In this document: piece after piece, positions 3,018-12,451 of the stretch
Position numbering within the stretch: the first letter of the stretch is position 1
Layout: the number at the start of each line of letters is the position of its first letter
The notes under the pieces: generated by a model
What the model was told of the DNA's origin: nothing
Databases searched by the model: none
What the model saw: the letters and a program-made list of their open reading frames with translations, nothing else
Position numbers and translations under genes: made by a program
Origin: Vicingaceae bacterium
GTDB lineage: Bacteria; Bacteroidota; Bacteroidia; Flavobacteriales_E; Vicingaceae
Length of the DNA stretch: 63,634 nucleotides
Direction: 5' to 3'
NCBI GenBank assembly: GCA_019429185.1
Contig: JAHYJH010000006.1
Coordinates: 1-63,634, forward strand

Positions 3018-3839
3018 ATGAAAAATAAATACATATCAACACAGTCAAATGAACTTCTATCCTATTTCAATGGACAGAACAAGGCTTGCTTTGATTATAG
3101 TGAAGCTTTCAACGCATTACCTGATTCAAAGGAAAGCACACTTCGGGAACTCCTAAGCGACATGACAAAGCGAGGACTTTTAATGAGATTGAAGGATGGA
3201 ATTTATTACATCATACCATACGAAGCAAATACTGAAACCTTCATGCCCGACTGGCATTTGATAGCAGAATATTTAGTCAATGATGCCGAACACTACATCG
3301 GTTATTATTCAGCACTACAAATTCATAACCTTATTACACAACCTTCTTTGAAAGAGCAAATTGTCGTTTCAAAGCAAATCCGACCATCAGAAATAAAAAT
3401 CAAGAATATTCCTTTCCAATTTATTTACCACAACGACAAACATTTTTTCGGTGCAAAGAAAATATGGATTGACAGTTTCAATAAAGTGCTTTGCTCTGAT
3501 TTAGAAAAAACTTTTATTGACTGCCTATTTAAACCAAACTACGCAGGCGGAATAGTAGAAATTGCAAAAGCTATTTATATGTCAAAAGAAAAAATTAAGT
3601 ACAATCAGATATATGATTACGCCATTAAATTTAACTCTCAGGCAGTAATAAAAAGACTTGGTTTTTTATTGGAGTTTCTTGAAATCAATACAGAAATAAT
3701 CGAAAAACTTCAAGAAAAGAAAACGAACTCTTATGTCCTTTTGGACACCGAATTACCAAAACAAGGCAAACGATTAAGCCGTTGGGGCATTCAACAAAAT
3801 TTGGAATTAGAAACCATTAAATCTGCCATTTACACATGA
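3018..3839 (+). CDS. abiEi: AbiEi-family antitoxin / autorepressor (type IV toxin-antitoxin)
   Basis: The 273-residue protein has an N-terminal winged-helix region (about residues 5-65: ELLSYF, then STLRELLSDMTKRGLL and LKDGIYYI) and a longer C-terminal domain typical of AbiEi antitoxins. In this family the HTH binds the operon's inverted repeats and the C-terminal domain counteracts AbiEii without forming a stable complex with it. The start lies just downstream of two matching operator dyads (2904-3009). The stop overlaps the toxin start by 4 nt (ATGA), so the two are translationally coupled. Family membership is from pattern recognition; length and order fit well. Confidence 0.8.
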   Translation: MKNKYISTQSNELLSYFNGQNKACFDYSEAFNALPDSKESTLRELLSDMTKRGLLMRLKDGIYYIIPYEANTETFMPDWHLIAEYLVNDAEHYIGYYSALQIHNLITQPSLKEQIVVSKQIRPSEIKIKNIPFQFIYHNDKHFFGAKKIWIDSFNKVLCSDLEKTFIDCLFKPNYAGGIVEIAKAIYMSKEKIKYNQIYDYAIKFNSQAVIKRLGFLLEFLEINTEIIEKLQEKKTNSYVLLDTELPKQGKRLSRWGIQQNLELETIKSAIYT

Positions 3840-4642
3840 TTAAGCCCGGGGAAATACAGCAAAAAGCAAGAGCGGTTGGCGTTCGTGACCAGCAGATTGA
3901 AAAAGATTATATTCTTTCATGGATATTAAAAGGCATTGCACAACATGAACAACTTTCAAAAATTATTGTGTTTAAAGGGGGAACTGTTTTAAAGAAAATC
4001 TATTTTGAAGATTACCGATTTTCGGAAGACTTGGATTTCACGCTAATCAATAATGAGATTTCTAATGAACAAATCTTTGAATGGTTCAGAGAAACATTTG
4101 AATACATAAAGGAAGAGGCTAATATTCCACTCGAAATCATTGATAACAACGAACACGAAGATGGGGGCATTAACTTTTACATTAGTTATATCGGCCCTCT
4201 TGGTGGACAAGGCAATAACAAAAGAGTAAAGATTGATATTTCCCGAAGCGAACAACTGGTTTTTGAACCCGTAATGAAAAATGTTTTCGTTGGCTATTCC
4301 GACATGGAAGAACATCAACTTTTGTGTTACCCATTGGAAGAAGTATTGGTAGAAAAAATGCGTTCGGTAATGCAGCGAATGCAAGCAAGAGATTTTTACG
4401 ACATCTGGTATTTACTCGAAGAACATGGAATGGATGCGGATTTTTATCTGAATGAGTTTGAAGCAAAGTGTAAAAGCAAAGATTTACTGTACACAGATTT
4501 TCCAAAGAAATTAACTGAACGATTACCTCAATATAAAGGCAGATGGCAAAGTTCCATGAGCGAACAAATACAAGATTTGCCAGACTTTGACAAAGTAGAA
4601 CGTGAAGTGCAACGACATTTTAAAAAATTAGATATAAAATGA
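3836..4642 (+). CDS. abiEii: AbiEii/AbiGii-family nucleotidyltransferase toxin
   Basis: The 268-residue protein carries the DNA polymerase-beta-type nucleotidyltransferase signature: VFKGGTVLKK (Gly48-Gly49) followed by FSEDLDF (Asp65, Asp67), the metal-binding pair. AbiEii toxins are bacteriostatic enzymes that modify cellular RNA (tRNA acceptor ends in characterised relatives), giving abortive infection when phage infection upsets the antitoxin balance. The gene overlaps abiEi by 4 nt and also overlaps the next gene, the methyltransferase at 4639, by 4 nt, so toxin-antitoxin and restriction genes form one transcript. All catalytic residues visible for the family are present, so it looks intact. 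Confidence 0.85.
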   Translation: MIKPGEIQQKARAVGVRDQQIEKDYILSWILKGIAQHEQLSKIIVFKGGTVLKKIYFEDYRFSEDLDFTLINNEISNEQIFEWFRETFEYIKEEANIPLEIIDNNEHEDGGINFYISYIGPLGGQGNNKRVKIDISRSEQLVFEPVMKNVFVGYSDMEEHQLLCYPLEEVLVEKMRSVMQRMQARDFYDIWYLLEEHGMDADFYLNEFEAKCKSKDLLYTDFPKKLTERLPQYKGRWQSSMSEQIQDLPDFDKVEREVQRHFKKLDIK

Positions 4643-5415
4643 AGAAATTGAAATTCATAGATTTGTTCGCAGGACTTGGTGGGTTTCATCTTGCCTTAGC
4701 AGACTTGGGACACAAATGCGTTTTTGCGAGTGAATTAAATGAAGAACTTAGAGAACTTTACGAAAAAAATCATCAGACAAAAATTCAAGGAGACATCAAC
4801 GAAGTTGATATAAATTCAATTCCTCCTCACGATATTTTGTGTGCTGGTTTTCCTTGTCAGCCATTTTCAAAAGCAGGAGCGCAATTAGGTCTTAATGACC
4901 CAAACAACGGAAATCTGTTTTATAAAATTATGGAAATTATAGAACAGCACGAACCTGAATTTGTGTTTTTAGAAAATGTTTCAAATCTTAAAGGACACGA
5001 TGAAGGAAACACTTGGAAAGTTATTCATAAAGAATTATCAAAACTTTATGATGTTAGAGAAGAAATTTTGTCGCCTCATCATTTCGGAATACCGCAGCAC
5101 CGTTCAAGATTTTACATTGTAGGACGACTTAAAAAGAAAGGTGGGTTAGACGATTTTAAATTCCCTGAGAAAGAAGTAAACGAAAATATCAGCATTCATA
5201 ATATCATCATAGAAGATGATACAGACTTTATGACTTTGCGTGAAAATACAAAAAATCATTTAGACGTTTGGCAAGAATTCTTAAATAATTTGGGCGTTCC
5301 CCTATCGGGTCGGGCTTTACATTTCAATCTTTTTGTTCGTTCCTCACAAAAAGGATTTCCACTACAATCCCTAACGCAACGAACTTCAACAACAAATCAT
5401 AAATTAGCTGCATAA
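4639..5415 (+). pseudogene. DNA (cytosine-5) methyltransferase, C-terminally truncated
   Basis: The N-terminal part is a clear C5-methyltransferase: FAGLGGF (motif I, residues 10-16), GFPCQPFSKAG with catalytic Cys73 (motif IV), LENV (motif VI, ~111-114) and QHRSR (motif VIII, 153-157). Genuine similarity stops at about residue 217 (position 5290), exactly where hairpin element A begins; the last ~40 codons are read from that element. The target-recognition domain and motifs IX-X are therefore missing and the enzyme should be inactive. It was probably the first gene of a MORC/MutL-type restriction operon (5mC methylase, GHKL ATPase, Z1 helicase, DUF4420 nuclease), judging from the genes at 6024-9328. 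Confidence 0.85.
5291..5379 (+). repeat. Hairpin-rich repeat element A (cassette boundary)
   Basis: An 89-nt element that starts TGGGCGTTCCCC and ends ATCCCTAACGCAA. Its outer ends (GCGTT/AACGC) pair. Inside are a small CCC-TATC-GGG hairpin and a longer one with arms AATCTTTTTGT and ACAAAAAGGATT. Element B (5936-6023) is the same sequence family in inverted orientation. From memory, elements with the CCTATCGGGTCGGGC core occur in accessory regions of many Bacteroidota; their function is not known to me. Confidence 0.8.
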
Positions 5416-5419
5416 CAAT

Positions 5420-5935
5420 ATGGAATATCAATTAGTATATCAACTTTTTCCTCGTTCATTTGGAATAACAGACGAAATAAGATCAGTAATTTCTTGTTTT
5501 GAAAAGCATTATGAAGAAATAAAATCACCTGAAAATAATTTGAGTAGCGATGGAGTCTTGCGAATTATTGCCGATGATTTGGAAGAATTGAATTTTAAAG
5601 TTGAAAAAAGCAAAGCAAGTATTGATAAAATAAAAGTTCCCGTTTTATTCAGTATAAACAATCGGATAGATAAGTTCTTTGATGCCGATGCAGTTAGTAC
5701 AGACGGAAAAATTGTGATTGAAGTTGAAGCAGGAAGAGGTTATCGAAATAATCAATTTTTGAAAGATATTTTTCAGGCTTGTATGATGCCAAATGTAGAA
5801 TACTTAGTTATAGCAGTTAGAAATCACTATCATAATACAGATGACTTCAAATCAATTTTTCAATTTTTAGAAACACTTTATATAAGTGGAAGACTTCAAC
5901 TTCCTTTAAAAGGAATTGTCCTTATTGGTTACTAA
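5420..5935 (+). CDS. Cassette gene: small PD-(D/E)XK-like protein of unknown function
   Basis: A 171-residue intact gene lying wholly between the inverted elements A and B; its stop codon touches the first base of B. The middle holds FFDADAV (Asp88, Asp90) followed by IVIEVEAGRGYRN (Glu101, Glu103), which resembles the D...ExE/K layout of a restriction-like nuclease fold. The conserved-looking tail is rich in FQACMM, YLVIAVRN and LPLKGIVLIGY. I recall small proteins of this look as stand-alone accessory genes but cannot name a function. It interrupts an older restriction operon, so it arrived separately from its neighbours. The ATG at 5420 is the only sensible start. Confidence 0.6.
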   Translation: MEYQLVYQLFPRSFGITDEIRSVISCFEKHYEEIKSPENNLSSDGVLRIIADDLEELNFKVEKSKASIDKIKVPVLFSINNRIDKFFDADAVSTDGKIVIEVEAGRGYRNNQFLKDIFQACMMPNVEYLVIAVRNHYHNTDDFKSIFQFLETLYISGRLQLPLKGIVLIGY

Positions 5936-6023
5936 TTGCGTGAGGGATAGAAGCGAAAAGCCCACAGCGAGGAACGAGCGAGGACTTGCAGCGAATAGCC
6001 CGACCCGATAGGGGGCACGCCCA
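5936..6023 (-). repeat. Hairpin-rich repeat element B (cassette boundary, inverted)
   Basis: The reverse complement reads TGGGCGTGCCCCCTATCGGG at one end and ATCCCTCACGCAA at the other, matching element A (5291-5379) in order and orientation when flipped. The central hairpin differs in sequence but keeps the CGTTCCTC loop. Coding sequence of the Z1 gene begins immediately after position 6023, so this edge marks a precise breakpoint. Confidence 0.8.
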
Positions 6024-7610
6024 AGAAAAAACAGCAAATCGGAAGACTGGGAAGACGATGAATTCAGTTCAACATATTCAAGTATTTTAGATTTGAGGGC
6101 TTCTCTTTCCAATCATTCTTACATTCAATATACAGCAACACCACAAGCACCGTTGCTCATAAATATTATGGATTTGCTTTCGCCAACGTTTCACGTTGTC
6201 CTTACACCGGGCAAATCATATACTGGTGGAAGAACCTTTTTTGAGGAAAATACAGACCTGATTTTTACTATTCCAGACAAAGAAGTATATCACCACAAAT
6301 ACAATCAACTACCCGAATGTCCACAAAGTTTGATTGACGCCTTGCAATTATTTTTAATGGGCGTTGCCATTAATGTAAATATTAAACAGAAAGAGAATTT
6401 TCTTTCCATGATGATCCATGCAGATAGAGAACAAGACGCAAGTAAAACATTTTATGATTGGGTAAAAAGACTAATCGGAATTTGGTCTGATATACTCGCT
6501 TTACCAGATAATGACCCAAGTAAAATAGAACTGGCAGCGGAGTTTTTTAAAAATTATGATGAAGCAATAAGACGAATTACTAATCCTCCAAGTTTTAATG
6601 CAGTGCTTGAGGAAGTGTTACAAGTAATACTTGACACAAACATAGAATTAGTTATCAGTAAAAATTCTACTGGAAAGCAAAAAAAGAATAATGAAATAAA
6701 CTGGGCAAATTACTCTTCTCATATTTTAGTTGGTGCTGAAATGTTGAATAGAGGCTATACAGTTGAAGGATTGGCTGTTTCTTATATGCCACGATATAGC
6801 ATTGGAAAATCAAATGCTGATACCATACAGCAACGATGCAGATTTTTCGGATATAAACTTAACTATCTCGATTCTTGTCGTGTATTTCTTCCTACCGATT
6901 CTATTTTAGAATATCGGGATTACGTAGAACACGAAGAAATTATGCGTACAATGCTGAAGGAAAACACTCTTGAAAGAGTTGAACAGTTGCTAATTCTTAA
7001 AAGCACGATGAACCCAACAAGAAACAATGTGCTTTCAGCCGATTTAGTAAAACATAAATTGAACGGTTGGCGACAAATGAATGCCTTACAGCATATTGAT
7101 GAAAACATTTCATTTGTTTCAAGTTTTCTTTCTTCACAAACATTTAAGAATTTCGAAAACTTCGGCACCGCTGATAGAAATCATCGTTATGTAAAACTTG
7201 AAATTGAAAAGGTTATTGAATTTTTGAAAGACTTCAAAATAATGAATATGCCTGATGCTTTACGTAAATCTTCAACCATTCAGTATTTACGCTATTTAGC
7301 AGACAAAATGGATATAAAATATGCTTATGTTTTTGAAATGAGTTACGGAGTAGTCAATGGTCGTGAAAGAAGTTTAGTTACTGAAAAAGAAATCTTAAAA
7401 ATCAGCAACATCTTTTCTGGTCGCTCAACATCAGGGTCTCAAACTTACCCAGGCGATAAGGGTATTCGTTTTGAAGATTCTCTTTGTATTCAAATTCACA
7501 AAGTAAAACTGAAACATAATTCAATGCAATGGGATAAAAAACTTGTTTACACTTTGGGTATTTACTATCCAGTAGATTTTGCTCATTCATTTGTAGGTAT
7601 AGAAAAATAA
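6024..7610 (+). pseudogene. Z1-domain helicase-like restriction protein, 5'-truncated
   Basis: Coding sequence runs in frame from the very edge of element B at 6024 (RKNSKSEDWEDDEFSSTYSS) to the stop at 7610, about 528 codons, with no proper start; the TTG at 6093 is only the first possible initiator. The block NHSYIQYTATPQAPLLINIMDLLSP and the later EMLNRGYTVEGLAVSYMPR and QRCRFFGYK are typical of the Z1 domain (PF10593), a superfamily II-like ATPase/helicase part found in MORC/MutL-type restriction systems. Family members are roughly 900 residues, so the N-terminal third or more, with the Walker A region, is gone. Downstream genes keep the normal operon order. Confidence 0.8.
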
Positions 7611-7611
7611 T

Positions 7612-8598
7612 ATGAAGTCCGTATTTAAAATATTCCAAGAACTTAAAAATGAGTCGCCCAAAAATGGCGACAGTTTTGCTATTGCTTCATTACCTTCAAT
7701 CAAAAATCACAAAATTGGAATTTCACAAAACGGACAGCCAATGTTCTTTATCAAATGTGACAATAGCACAAGTTCAAAATCATTAGATAGTAATCTTGAA
7801 TTTATTTCTGTTCAGTTCAACCGCCAATGCCAATTGATTAACAAAAAAATGAAAATTGAAGAAGACATTTATACAATTATTTCACTCAAAACAGATTCCG
7901 ACTATTTACAGGAATATTTCTTGAAAATTGTTTTTGTACTCGTAAACAAGATTCCCGAGAAACCACTCCTTAAAGATTTGAAAATTGAAATAGAAAAGTT
8001 GATAAACTTATTTACCAAATTTTCAAAACCACCTTTAAAAACAATTCAAGGTCTTTGGGCAGAACTATTAGTTATTGAACAATCAAAACACCCCGACTAC
8101 TTAATTCAATCTTGGCATAATTCAGCATATGATAAATACGATTTTAATGACGGCATTGACAAAGTTGAAGTAAAAAGTACAGCAAAAAGCAGAAGGATTC
8201 ATAGTTTTTCATTGGAGCAATTAACGCCAAACACAAACTCTAAACTTATTGTTACCTCTATTTTTTCAATCGAAACGGGAACAGGTACTAATATCTTTGA
8301 TTTAATTGACAGAATAGAAGCCAAAATCAACGATAAAAATTTAAGTTTTCGTGTTAATGAAATGGTTGGTTTAACACTTGGTAAGGACTTTGAAAAATCA
8401 TTAGATGTTTTCTTTGACTATCAATTTGCGATTGATTCTATAAAGCATTACAATAGTGATGATATTCCTATTATTAGTGATATTCACATTCCCTCAAATA
8501 TTATGAATGTTAGATTTGATTGTGATTTAACAGATGTAAAAACAGTTTCAAAAAGGAAATCTAAGTCAAAACTTCATAACTCAATATTTAACGTGTAG
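7612..8598 (+). CDS. DUF4420 / PD-(D/E)XK motif protein of a MORC-type restriction system
   Basis: The 328-residue protein shows the DUF4420 pattern: GLWAELLVIE (147-156), then YDFNDGIDKVEVKST with Asp177/Asp183 and the Glu186-Val-Lys188 pair, followed by RRIHSFSLEQL. These are the D-ExK catalytic residues of a PD-(D/E)XK nuclease. In characterised gene neighbourhoods the family sits with a 5mC methylase, a MutL/MORC-like GHKL ATPase and a Z1 helicase, and is thought to be the cutting subunit. Here it follows the truncated Z1 gene with only one base between them and appears intact. With the methylase and ATPase lost, its activity in this strain is doubtful. Confidence 0.75.
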   Translation: MKSVFKIFQELKNESPKNGDSFAIASLPSIKNHKIGISQNGQPMFFIKCDNSTSSKSLDSNLEFISVQFNRQCQLINKKMKIEEDIYTIISLKTDSDYLQEYFLKIVFVLVNKIPEKPLLKDLKIEIEKLINLFTKFSKPPLKTIQGLWAELLVIEQSKHPDYLIQSWHNSAYDKYDFNDGIDKVEVKSTAKSRRIHSFSLEQLTPNTNSKLIVTSIFSIETGTGTNIFDLIDRIEAKINDKNLSFRVNEMVGLTLGKDFEKSLDVFFDYQFAIDSIKHYNSDDIPIISDIHIPSNIMNVRFDCDLTDVKTVSKRKSKSKLHNSIFNV

Positions 8599-8599
8599 T

Positions 8600-9328
8600 A
8601 TGAGAAAATTAATTGCAAAAGACCTAAAGATAAAGTTCACTGAAACTTTAAATGAATTAGATGAATTCTCGTATGAAGATGGAAATCCGTTTTTAATTAA
8701 AATAGGAAAAAAACAATACTTTGTATTTCTAAAAAATTTGTCTCCAGCGTATTTTAAAAATTCTCCAGACGTTACAAGAGTTCAATTGCCTTACAGCAAT
8801 CATTTTTCAAAAATTTTCAAAGCAGATATTCCATTTATTATTCTTGGCTACGATGTGGATAACGACACAGTTGTTTCATGGAATCCTAAGAAAATAAAGG
8901 AGCGTTTAAATGCTAAAAACAATGTGTCGTTGTATTCTCGTTCATCGCTACAAGAGCAAGTTAAAGACCATGAGTTTAAGTTTGGCTATTTATCAAATGG
9001 GGAAAAAATCGTATTGTTCAAACGAGACAACCTCACTAACTTCTTTAATCAAATTAAAGACTTGTTTAAAGAACGTCAAGAAAAAGATACAACTACTTCT
9101 GTAAAAATAGCAATTGAACCGACAATTGAATATTCATCAAATAAACTACTAGAAATTACTGACAAAGCGTTGCTGCAAGACTTAAAACCATTACTTAGAA
9201 AAAACCAAGTTTTACAGGCAGTTGAAATAACTTCAAACTATTTTGATGGCAAGTTTAAAGATATGACATTTAAAGACTGGTATCAACTTGTCAATCAACT
9301 TTATAAAAAAATGAATTCAAAAGAATAA
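8600..9328 (+). CDS. Uncharacterised last gene of the MORC-type restriction operon
   Basis: A 242-residue protein that begins 2 nt after the DUF4420 gene. I do not recognise a named family. The first ~120 residues (KKQYFVFLKNLSPAYFKNSPDVTRVQLP, FIILGYDVDNDTVVSWNPKKIKERL) look like a compact beta-rich recognition domain; a glutamate/lysine-rich linker and a helical C-terminal half (LKPLLRKNQVLQAVEITSNYF) follow. The tight spacing makes it a likely functional partner of the nuclease, possibly the DNA- or modification-reading subunit, but that is inference from position only. No truncation is visible. Confidence 0.55.
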   Translation: MRKLIAKDLKIKFTETLNELDEFSYEDGNPFLIKIGKKQYFVFLKNLSPAYFKNSPDVTRVQLPYSNHFSKIFKADIPFIILGYDVDNDTVVSWNPKKIKERLNAKNNVSLYSRSSLQEQVKDHEFKFGYLSNGEKIVLFKRDNLTNFFNQIKDLFKERQEKDTTTSVKIAIEPTIEYSSNKLLEITDKALLQDLKPLLRKNQVLQAVEITSNYFDGKFKDMTFKDWYQLVNQLYKKMNSKE

Positions 9329-9785: not shown

Positions 9786-10088
9786 ATGAAAACTTTTGGA
9801 GAAATCATTAAAGCGAAACGAGAAGAACAAAATCTGTTGCTTCGAGAAATTTCAGCCTTGACTAATATTGATCAATCAATTATTAGCAAATTAGAAAAAG
9901 GTAAAAGAAAAGCTTCACGAGAGCAAGTATTGAAATTTGCTGCAGTTTATAAGTTACCACCAAGTGATTTAATTATTTCATGGCAAAGCGACAAAGTCGC
10001 TTATGATTTAATACTTGAAAATGATGCAGAAAAAATTTTAAAAGCTGCTGAATCAAAAGTTAAATATCTTAAAACCATAAAAAAATGA
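9786..10088 (+). CDS. XRE-family controller (C) protein of a type II R-M system
   Basis: A 100-residue helix-turn-helix protein: IIKAKREEQNLLLREISALT, then IDQSIISKLEKGKRKASREQVLKFA (HTH about residues 20-65), with a short C-terminal tail containing SDKVAYD and KVKYLKT. Controllers of this size time the expression of restriction relative to modification so that a new host is methylated before it is cut. The stop overlaps the methyltransferase start (ATGA). It is homologous to the controller at 35150-35476: same HTH, same SD(K/Q)xAY and KVKYLKT tail, and same operator. The ATG at 9786 fits the promoter. Confidence 0.85.
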   Translation: MKTFGEIIKAKREEQNLLLREISALTNIDQSIISKLEKGKRKASREQVLKFAAVYKLPPSDLIISWQSDKVAYDLILENDAEKILKAAESKVKYLKTIKK

Positions 10089-11362
10089 AAAAAAATTTAT
10101 TGTCACTATTTACTGGTTGTGGCGGAATGGATATTGGTTTTGAAGGTGGTTTTAAAATTCCTAAAGCAACAATTAATGCTAACATACACAATGAATGGAT
10201 TCAAGAAGAGGATGAAATATATTATTATTTAAAAGAAACTTTTTTTGAAACCAAATTTGCAAATGACATTAGCGAACACGCTAAAATTGCATGGAACGAT
10301 TACTTTTCAAAGAAGCGAGGGCAAGACCTAAATGGAACTTTTCGAGTTGGAAGCATTGTAGATATTGTAAAGGAATATCAAAATGGAAACAAAAATGTAT
10401 TTCCAAAAAATATAGAAATTGTTACTGGCGGCTTCCCATGCCAAGATTTTAGCGTAGCTGGTAAACGTAATGGATTTAATTCACACAAAGACCATCACGG
10501 AAGAATAATAAACTCAGATATTCCAACCGAAGAGACAAGGGGTAAACTTTATATGTGGATGAAGCAAGTTGTTGAAATTACTTTACCTAAAATATTTATC
10601 GCAGAAAATGTAAAAGGTTTAGCAAATTTAGGACAAGTAAAAGAAATTATCCAATCAGATTTTTCAAATATAAATGGAGATAGTTACTTAGTTTTATCGC
10701 CTAAAATTTTACATTCAGGGCATTACGGGATTCCTCAATCAAGAGAAAGAATAATATTTATAGGATTTAAAAAATCTGCTCTTACAGAAGAAGCTTTAAA
10801 AGAATTATCGAAAAACGATATTTCAGAAAAATATGACCCTTATCCAATTGCGACACACCGGTTAAATGGAGAAATGCATTATTCATCCGTTGAAAATTTG
10901 ATGACATCATTTACAAAATGCAAAGAAGTATTGTTGGATTTGAAAGAACCAGAAGAAGCATCTGACCTATCACAAATGCACTATTCTAAAGCAAAGTTTA
11001 TGGGTACTCATTGCCAAGGTCAAAAAGAAATTGAATTAGAAAAACTTGCTCCAACAATCCGTTCTGAGCATCACGGAAATATTGAATACCGAAGACTTAC
11101 GGTTGCAAACGGTGGTAAAATCATCAATGAATTACAAAATGGGCTTAAAGAAAGACGCTTAACTTTAAGAGAATGTGCAAGAATTCAAACATTTCCAGAC
11201 GATTTTAATTTTGTAATCCCTAATAATAAAAAGAATACTAAATTTTCTGTCAGCCCATCGGTTGGTTATAAATTAGTGGGTAATGCTGTTCCTCCTTTAT
11301 TAGCATACCACATTGCAAAAAAGTTAGAATCAAACTGGACATTATATTTTAAGCCTTTGTAA
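10085..11362 (+). CDS. Type II DNA (cytosine-5) methyltransferase
   Basis: The 425-residue enzyme is complete: LFTGCGGMDIGF (motif I, ~8-19), GGFPCQDFSVAG with catalytic Cys119 (motif IV), AENVKG (motif VI, ~173-178), PQSRERIIFIGF (motif VIII), a target-recognition region about 260-350, and LTLRECARIQTFPDDF plus VGYKLVGNAVPP (motifs IX-X). It transfers a methyl group from S-adenosylmethionine to C5 of cytosine. It overlaps the controller by 4 nt and precedes the endonuclease by 28 nt, forming a compact C-M-R operon. If the endonuclease is truly ThaI-like the site would be CGCG, but nothing in the methyltransferase itself proves this. Confidence 0.9.
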   Translation: MKKNLLSLFTGCGGMDIGFEGGFKIPKATINANIHNEWIQEEDEIYYYLKETFFETKFANDISEHAKIAWNDYFSKKRGQDLNGTFRVGSIVDIVKEYQNGNKNVFPKNIEIVTGGFPCQDFSVAGKRNGFNSHKDHHGRIINSDIPTEETRGKLYMWMKQVVEITLPKIFIAENVKGLANLGQVKEIIQSDFSNINGDSYLVLSPKILHSGHYGIPQSRERIIFIGFKKSALTEEALKELSKNDISEKYDPYPIATHRLNGEMHYSSVENLMTSFTKCKEVLLDLKEPEEASDLSQMHYSKAKFMGTHCQGQKEIELEKLAPTIRSEHHGNIEYRRLTVANGGKIINELQNGLKERRLTLRECARIQTFPDDFNFVIPNNKKNTKFSVSPSVGYKLVGNAVPPLLAYHIAKKLESNWTLYFKPL

Positions 11363-11390
11363 TTTCGCCTAAATTTTTAATTTAGGTATA

Positions 11391-12026
11391 ATGTCAAAGA
11401 AAATACTTAAAATATTCAACGAGAAATTATTAATTAATAAAATTCAAGAAAAACTCCCCTTTCTTTTTCAATTAGCTGAAATTGATAATTCTCGTGATGG
11501 AAAATTAGGAATGGAAATTGGTTCTGCTAGAGAAAGAATAGTAATTGCACTACTGATTTACAAATTTGGAGAGAAAAACGTAAAAACTGATATAGCAATA
11601 ACTGAAAGTGAGATAGATGTGATTGTTTATGATGAGCCAATTTCAATAAAAACAGTAACAAATAAAAAAGTAGTAGGAGTAAAATTGATTTGGACAGTTG
11701 ATGCACAAAAGGCTTTAGCTTTTATTAATAACTATTCTCCTGAATGTGATATTTTATTTGTTCATATTAATTGGGGTGGAAAAGGTGCATTATATCTATT
11801 ATCTAAAGAAGGTCAAAAAGAAATTTTAAATAAATATGGAAAGGCTTTCTATTTCAAATTACCAAAACCAGGGACGAATCCTATAGGAGTTGAAATTACG
11901 AATGAAGCAATAAACAAACTTGTAGAACATGCTTCAACGAAAAAGGTCGAAATTGATTGGAGTAGAGATGATTCAGTAGAATACAATTCTTATGCAAGGT
12001 GGGTGGAGCATTGGAAAGAAAAATAA
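11391..12026 (+). CDS. Type II restriction endonuclease, ThaI-like
   Basis: The 211-residue protein matches my memory of the ThaI family (known member cuts CG^CG): EIDNSRDGKLGMEIGSARERIVIALLIYKFG followed by ITESEIDVIV with Asp76 and ISIKTVT with Ser85-Ile-Lys87. The last would be a D-(S)xK variant of the PD-(D/E)XK site; Glu72 and Glu74 are nearby alternatives for the missing acid. Position right behind a controller and a 5mC methyltransferase makes a restriction role very likely even if the family name is wrong. The ATG at 11391 follows a short gap, and no truncation is visible. Base composition is as AT-rich as its partners. Confidence 0.7.
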   Translation: MSKKILKIFNEKLLINKIQEKLPFLFQLAEIDNSRDGKLGMEIGSARERIVIALLIYKFGEKNVKTDIAITESEIDVIVYDEPISIKTVTNKKVVGVKLIWTVDAQKALAFINNYSPECDILFVHINWGGKGALYLLSKEGQKEILNKYGKAFYFKLPKPGTNPIGVEITNEAINKLVEHASTKKVEIDWSRDDSVEYNSYARWVEHWKEK

Positions 12027-12180: not shown

Positions 12181-12451
12181 GGGTCACGTACTTAGCGGTT
12201 CGCAAGTCATCAGATAGAATGCTCTTTACACCAACCTACCTTATTCGGTTACTTTAATCAGGAGCTATACACCTTTAAGTGTATTCTCAAGTTCATTTCC
12301 CGAAAACTTGCGTTCAGTCCTTCCTTTGTTTGTGAGTCCTCCAACTTTCTTTTTCTTTTGTTGGCTCGTTACTACTAAGTACTATGACCTCTGCTGACTT
12401 CTCAATTCTGCTAGCTCGTAACTGTCAGCCCTGCAAGCTGGCTCGTTCGCT

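Follow-up and report, generated by a model that had tools for sequence, protein, structure and literature searches.

Homologs of the methyl-specific nuclease McrBC occur inserted in RM gene complexes, and McrBC kills the host cell upon genome methylation (PMC2614495); such inserts and such killing are a precedent for reading other restriction loci in terms of a conflict between methylation and nuclease. Repair-based copying has been proposed for the free-standing endonucleases of T4 by which nrdA and gene 60 are split, and split genes, stop/start spacing, deletions and microhomology are on record for T4 mob/seg genes or introns (PMC2988022). The Flavo-1 RNA motif (Rfam RF01705) was described by Weinberg et al. 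2010 (PMC2864571), and in F. psychrophilum its matches lie in transcripts in either sense, with many outside transcripts (PMC9723704). Our literature search on restriction genes that interrupt methylase genes found nothing specific.

All three systems bear on a locus in a 63,634-nucleotide stretch of DNA from a Vicingaceae bacterium (genome G000, assembly GCA_019429185.1, contig JAHYJH010000006.1), referred to here as the window. Our preferred reading, to which we give a probability of about 45%, is that a mobile one-gene unit, probably encoding a methylation-dependent nuclease, was established there by an illegitimate integration that destroyed an m5C methylase. The biochemical part of this reading is drawn from the distribution of the gene.

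The replaced operon segment and its boundaries

An uninterrupted operon in a genome of the same family (locus L039 in G027) was used as the reference for breakpoints. It encodes Dcm (431 aa), GHKL (514), Z1 (724), DUF4420 (329) and MTaX1 (350), in that order. The order in the window is an N-terminal Dcm fragment, a hairpin element (A), an intact 171-codon gene, a second element (B), and then Z1, DUF4420 and MTaX1 coding sequence. DNA homology between the two loci ends at 5292 and restarts at 6022 (84% and 79% identity), and 729 bp in the window occupy the place of 2,768 bp in L039. The missing segment comprises Dcm past codon ~217, the entire 514-aa GHKL gene and Z1 codons 1 to ~202; the GHKL ATPase gene by which a MORC-type RM operon is recognized is thus missing from the Dcm-Z1 interval of the window and present in L039. 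A custom covariance model, R1, detected no Flavo-1-type element in L039. This comparison bears out a preliminary description of the locus, according to which the central part of the operon had given way to a one-gene cassette, the element is found at both breakpoints, Z1 coding resumes to the right of B, some 2-3 kb (the Dcm end, the GHKL gene and the Z1 N-terminus) are missing, and an uninterrupted relative should lack A and B.

The remnant of the C5-cytosine methyltransferase (codons 1-217; 4639-5290, + strand) matches PF00145 (E = 9e-61) and has 84% DNA identity to the intact G027 dcm gene. Element A (5291-5379, - strand, start at 5290/5291) directly adjoins the methylase breakpoint with its outer end, CCCAA; the native sequence there has TTTG. 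The earlier claim that methylase coding stops exactly at this point stands for the homology. It does not stand for the reading frame, which passes in frame through element A and 36 nt beyond it, to 5415, where it ends in ..NHKLAA*. This ..KLAA-stop tail falls in the left end of the cassette (5380-5419, + strand), with its stop 4 nt ahead of the nuclease ATG, and the same xAA-stop tail occurs in the sequence of other insertion sites. The intact gene for the 171-aa nuclease (5420-5935, + strand) is, as first described, the only one between the elements, and its TAA (5933-5935) abuts the 5' end of element B (5936-6023, + strand, end at 6023/6024). The outer end of B, CCCAAG, is flush with the resumed Z1 sequence (native GCAAG at the junction). 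The Z1-domain remnant (6024-7610, + strand), from which ~202 N-terminal codons are gone, matches PF10593 (E = 8e-34) and shares 80% amino acid identity with the Z1 protein of G027; its first ORF start is a TTG at 6093. An intact DUF4420 (PD-(D/E)XK) gene (7612-8598, + strand; PF14390, E = 3e-32; 81% identity to G027) and the MTaX1 (methylase-associated X1) gene (8600-9328, + strand; PF20296, E = 4e-21) complete the operon.

At both junctions the CCCAA ends of the elements coincide with a native CAA of the host, as judged against L039. At the left junction, native AATTTG corresponds to AATTTGGGCG, and at the right junction, native TATGCAAGAAAA corresponds to CGCCCAAGAAAA. The sister genome, Flavobacteriales BRH_c54 (G003), has the left junction, element A, the nuclease gene and the start of B in common with the window at 94% DNA identity, so the replacement event is older than the split of the two genomes. 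Additional Dcm sequence is gone in G003 between direct repeats (AAAAATCAT), as is everything to the right of the start of B.

Several features surround the operon. An AbiEi/AbiEii pair (3018-4642) lies immediately upstream of the Dcm fragment; the same AbiEi/AbiEii-Dcm order is found at L084, where just ~7 Dcm codons are left before a different nuclease. Beside the broken operon is a complete RM system (9786-12026) made up of a helix-turn-helix gene, a further C5 methylase and a restriction gene of the ThaI family. The defence genes are bordered by a 573-aa ORF (1111-2832) for which Pfam gave no significant match, and matches to group II intron D1D4 domains occur on the - strand at 329-502 and 12336-12442, the second barely above threshold.

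The cassette gene and its occurrence at C5-methylase loci

The AlphaFold2 model of the cassette gene product (pLDDT 89.3) has a minimal BglII/BamHI fold. The predicted model matches BglII with Z 13.3 and rmsd 3.1 over 144 residues, and OkrAI with a Foldseek probability of 1.00; Foldseek/VIA rows beyond the BglII group were middling and were left out. Residues D90, E101 and E103, which form a D...E-x-E pattern, are invariant in 47 sequences. On this modelling, the product is a predicted PD-(D/E)XK nuclease of BglII/BamHI fold, for which no family was found in Pfam, NCBIfam, PADLOC or PHROGs. Plasmids and phages gave no protein match; a match to a Priestia plasmid, in unannotated DNA there, is to the nuclease coding sequence and does not include the element. 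Comparison of G000 with G003, in both of which the operon is broken, gives dN 0.0025, dS 0.177 and dN/dS 0.014 for the nuclease. Judged by these substitution rates, strong purifying selection after insertion is shown, and the nuclease is therefore selected although no intact methylase lies beside it.

The nuclease and its host operon differ in their similarity to the window from locus to locus. At L071, Dcm is 40% and the nuclease 89% similar, and at L070 the figures are 69% for the host and 92% for the nuclease. The balance is reversed at L090 (Dcm 85%, nuclease 65%) and at L084 (AbiEii 81%, MTaX1 97%, nuclease 68%). These comparisons show that the nuclease is independent of the ancestry of the host operon. 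In the nuclease tree the MORC-type label requires 6 changes and the GGCC label 9. Counts as low as these came up in 0 of 500 shuffles, and each label is clustered by clade: one Bacteroidota clade is found mostly at MORC-type Dcm and one multi-phylum clade at GGCC systems.

The survey covered the 80 relatives listed of 246. C5-methylase sequence was present at 31 of the 80 nuclease loci and at 0 of 60 control loci. As immediate neighbours, C5 methylases were found upstream in 14 of 69 cases and downstream in 9 of 62, NgoPII genes upstream in 6 and downstream in 2, and N6 or N4 methylases in none among the listed families. The same type of operon was replaced with other breakpoints at L071, L073, L074, L084 and L090, and also at L095 (Verrucomicrobia), where the nuclease is flanked by Dcm and by a GHKL gene without its first ~216 codons. 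In intact-operon coordinates, the left/right breakpoints are 6913/9682 for G000, 7444/11821 for L071, 7498/9396 for L073, 7432/9312 for L090, 6937/12367 for L074 and ~6285/12523 for L084.

Elsewhere the nuclease was found inside or between M.HaeIII-like, HaeIII and NgoPII genes (L098, L102, L103, L112, L115, L125, L127, L130, L136, L137, L143, L144 and L148). In three GGCC-type systems (L112, L115 and L136), it sits with a small companion ORF within an M.HaeIII-like gene, in the order methylase N-half, nuclease, Flavo-1 past the nuclease stop, C-half and intact HaeIII gene. At L137/L063 it lies farther along the same M.HaeIII-like gene, with the HaeIII start deleted, and at L143 it follows a methylase fragment and abuts an NgoPII gene without its start. 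Other methylase or restriction-gene fragments adjoin it at L098, L102, L103, L122, L125, L127, L130, L144 and L148; these fragment-adjoining loci (L098-L148) belong to Pseudomonadota, Bacillota, Planctomycetota and others. Gaps between nuclease and host gene are typically 5-50 nt, elements and companion ORFs aside. Taken together, the insertions lie flush within C5-methylase or GGCC restriction genes, at a dozen or more different codons. They come from several phyla, and most of them have no Flavo-1. These breakpoints show that relatives of the nuclease have repeatedly entered restriction loci with a C5 methylase, at many different codons and across several phyla.

Two further gene types were seen next to the nuclease. 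Two mutually unrelated families of small ORFs, of about 80 and 70 aa (L112 4762-5004 and L098 4192-4398), with no Pfam or PHROG family, alternate directly upstream of it and may be its functional partners. The gene directly past the nuclease stop at L070 (5524-7824) and L111 (5506-7821) is probably a Piwi-domain gene, an assignment based on two Piwi matches in the tally of downstream neighbours.

The left boundary has a further regularity. Usually the broken methylase frame closes with an in-frame Ala-Ala-stop that precedes the start of the nuclease by a few bases, with the tails KLAA, KIAA, KNAA, NAA, RIAA and LLAA in 16 loci (at L083, the tail is on a regulator gene); exceptions are L069, L075, L084, L088 (PA), L101, L111 and L115. 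Both the Ala codons and the stop codons vary among the 16 loci, which looks like conservation at the protein level combined with translational coupling. The Ala-Ala tail on the broken methylase may be an ssrA-like degradation signal.

An alternative is that the nuclease is an ordinary type II enzyme with the same specificity as the methylase, so that the R genes were shuffled in an isoschizomer replacement and methylase truncation is later decay. The BglII/BamHI fold, the canonical C-R-M or M-R layouts at L080, L083, L085, L088 and L095, and the match of nuclease clade to methylase type agree with this account. We nevertheless consider it unlikely. In most loci the methylase is cut flush at the cassette with no other full-length close methylase in the genome, yet the nuclease remains under strong purifying selection, and decay would not halt again and again right at the cassette and leave an AA-stop tail in frame. 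Searches with intact MORC-type Dcm or M.HaeIII-like sequence as queries found no second full-length close methylase in 28 nuclease genomes (12 MORC-type, 16 GGCC-type), which may be incomplete, and this disfavours an ordinary type II enzyme; the sole nearly complete close methylase among them is the in-situ copy at L073. The intact cognate methylase of a type II RM system is likewise missing here, the window methylase being truncated and G000 and G003 having no full-length close copy.

Gene-in-gene insertions that split a coding region (L112 and L136), stop/start spacing suggestive of translational coupling, and large deletions with short microhomology at junctions would also suit a selfish gene of the homing-endonuclease type, which cuts methylase genes and enters them as a copy when the double-strand break is repaired illegitimately, with resection. 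We rate this as quite improbable, since homing would call for a single conserved target site and the insertions instead fall at a dozen or more codons. A BglII-type fold normally reads 4-6 bp palindromes, which are too frequent for homing, and two host classes are matched to two nuclease clades. Illegitimate entry of a methylation-dependent nuclease is the reading we retain.

Flavo-1 elements at the edges of the unit

Elements A and B are, as first described, inverted copies of one hairpin element, scoring 91.9 bits (E = 3.5e-21) and 79.5 bits (E = 6.7e-18) with model R1. The core 17-mer occurs exactly twice, with 0.01 occurrences expected from shuffling. The element is already in Rfam as Flavo-1, to which A matches with 54.5 bits, above the RF01705 gathering threshold of 42 bits, and B with 34.4 bits (E = 2e-5), below it. 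An alignment of 22 full-length copies yielded an extended fold beyond the Rfam model, in which 15 of 24 pairs have compensatory changes. The last pair of the outer 5-bp stem, GCGTN/NACGC, covaries (T-A in 14, G-C in 6 and A-T in 1 of the 22-copy alignment), and an ACCC/GGG side hairpin also lies outside the Rfam model.

Flavo-1 occurs well beyond this locus, as had been anticipated. Its distribution is patchy, with 1 to about 70 copies each in 38 of 100 genomes of the class and up to 72 matches per genome. Of about 48 copies of the A/B subclass outside nuclease loci, those listed are intergenic, often 1-25 nt from a stop codon, and give no sign of a general cassette arrangement. Being intergenic, near stop codons and present in many copies, Flavo-1 is a REP-like repeat that rarely bounds cassettes. 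Mobilisation by a RAYT/IS200-type enzyme was considered and rejected, 30 Y1-transposase loci giving one weak element match and no adjacency otherwise. Phages contained no copy of element B, and for a copy on contig C35 of the window's own genome, an empty-site comparison found only one flank conserved in a relative. Nearly identical 82-nt copies at L001, L007, L008, L010, L012 and L192-L195 have flanks conserved beyond the element, and some of them are in direct repeat, 9 or 23 kb apart; these copies suggest a longer repeat unit in the Flavo-1 family.

The preliminary description had proposed that such elements are the substrate of a general gene-cassette recombination system, in which case the inverted pair would be the recombination sites that moved the nuclease gene and others. 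Both breakpoints do lie at element ends with native CAA, and several other Bacteroidota nuclease loci have the element at the edge of the unit (G000, G003, L063/L137, L071, L073, L112, L115 and L136, and weakly L064/L065). A second inverted pair in an A/B-like layout, at L183 (G093:C18, 4111-5127), surrounds a 0.84-kb pair of small genes that resembles a RelE/ParE toxin with its antitoxin, so a cassette role of Flavo-1 ends is possible in some events. As a general system, however, we find the proposal very improbable. The generic copies listed are ordinary repeats without cassettes, most nuclease replacements have one element or none, and Flavo-1 is absent from all 47 further nuclease loci, nearly all outside Bacteroidota. 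No recombinase partner or RAYT link was found, and polarity and orientation are unlike those of attC: an integron gene cassette was rejected since the ends here are GCGTKAGGG..NACGCCC in inverted orientation, as against RYYYAAC..GTTRRRY in direct orientation for attC.

Across these loci, the common denominator of the replacements is the nuclease gene, not the hairpin. The Flavo-1 pair at the window locus is best explained as the outer ends of the arriving unit, with the elements as passengers or occasional end sequences and not as a general determinant. Within Bacteroidota, Flavo-1 ends may be favoured recombination points, because they are far commoner at nuclease edges than expected from a background of a few to tens per genome. 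Our results also correct the picture of Flavo-1, which has an extended structure here and behaves as a DNA repeat.

Proposed mechanism and comparison with known systems

Under the preferred reading, a compact unit, essentially one BglII-fold nuclease gene, would have entered the C5-methylase/GHKL/Z1 operon by illegitimate recombination, through microhomology or hairpin ends, with deletion of 2.77 kb of the operon. The nuclease would now be expressed from the operon via translational coupling to the truncated methylase. From its distribution, we infer that it cuts m5C-methylated DNA. A BglII-type enzyme should read a short site, and an unprotected genome would therefore be cut; a methylation-dependent nuclease would be harmless where methylation is absent, and in a methylating cell it could gain a foothold only at a site where its arrival destroys the methylase. 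Methylation dependence predicts nesting in C5-methylase genes at arbitrary codons, matching of clade to methylase, and selection on the nuclease. A broader version is tentative and, to us, doubtful: that m5C-dependent single-gene nucleases of BglII fold spread between bacteria by landing in, and abolishing, C5-methylase genes, that landing is set by methylation incompatibility and not by sequence recognition, and that the Ala-Ala tail may tag the broken methylase for degradation.

Several observations speak against the preferred reading. Proteins with the BglII/BamHI fold are typically ordinary type II enzymes, and methylation dependence is deduced from where the gene occurs. Complete C5 methylases lie beside the nuclease at L080, L083, L085/L088 and L095, and a nearly complete one at L073. 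Full-length HaeIII or NgoPII genes lie beside broken methylases (L112, L115, L136, L108, L121 and L125), which should kill the cell unless the restriction genes are inactive or the split methylase is functional. Roughly half of the nuclease loci have a non-RM or unassigned context, and we found no transposase, integrase or integration intermediate. Separately, an apparently full-length NgoPII-like gene lies directly before the nuclease at L108, L121, L125, L097 and L119; an intact GGCC methylase was found neither close by nor elsewhere in the genome.

What the survey reveals is that one nuclease family has invaded methylase genes repeatedly and independently in many phyla, with specificity for the gene yet not for the site. 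If the nuclease is methylation-dependent, these cases would be evidence from nature that restriction loci are shaped by a conflict of methylation with methyl-specific nucleases.

In comparison with described systems, elements A and B have the 76-nt core hairpin of Flavo-1 with its symmetric internal loops, but the A/B subclass adds to the Rfam model the covarying outer stem and the side hairpin. A single gene followed at its 3' end by a hairpin repeat recalls integron cassettes; the window elements, in contrast, are inverted at both ends and have other end motifs, and no integron integrase was seen. The operon resembles MORC-type (GHKL/Z1) operons and PADLOC MzaC/MzaD in having Dcm, Z1, DUF4420 and MTaX1, whole or as remnants, but is without GHKL, the Dcm C-terminus and the Z1 N-terminus. 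The predicted nuclease has the fold of BglII, BamHI, BstYI and OkrAI over about 140 of 171 residues, including the catalytic-type pattern of acidic residues, but is smaller, has 12-16% identity to them and is usually without an intact cognate methylase nearby. As with T4 mobE in nrdA (PMC2988022), the insertion is intronless and in a coding region, with overlap or near-overlap of stop and start and a split host protein; unlike the T4 homing endonucleases, it has many insertion points, lies in bacterial restriction loci and encodes a different nuclease fold. Like McrBC in RM complexes (Fukuda et al. 2008, PMC2614495), nuclease genes occur here as inserts in conflict with methylases, but the cassette is a single small BglII-fold gene, with no McrB GTPase, that lands inside the methylase gene itself.
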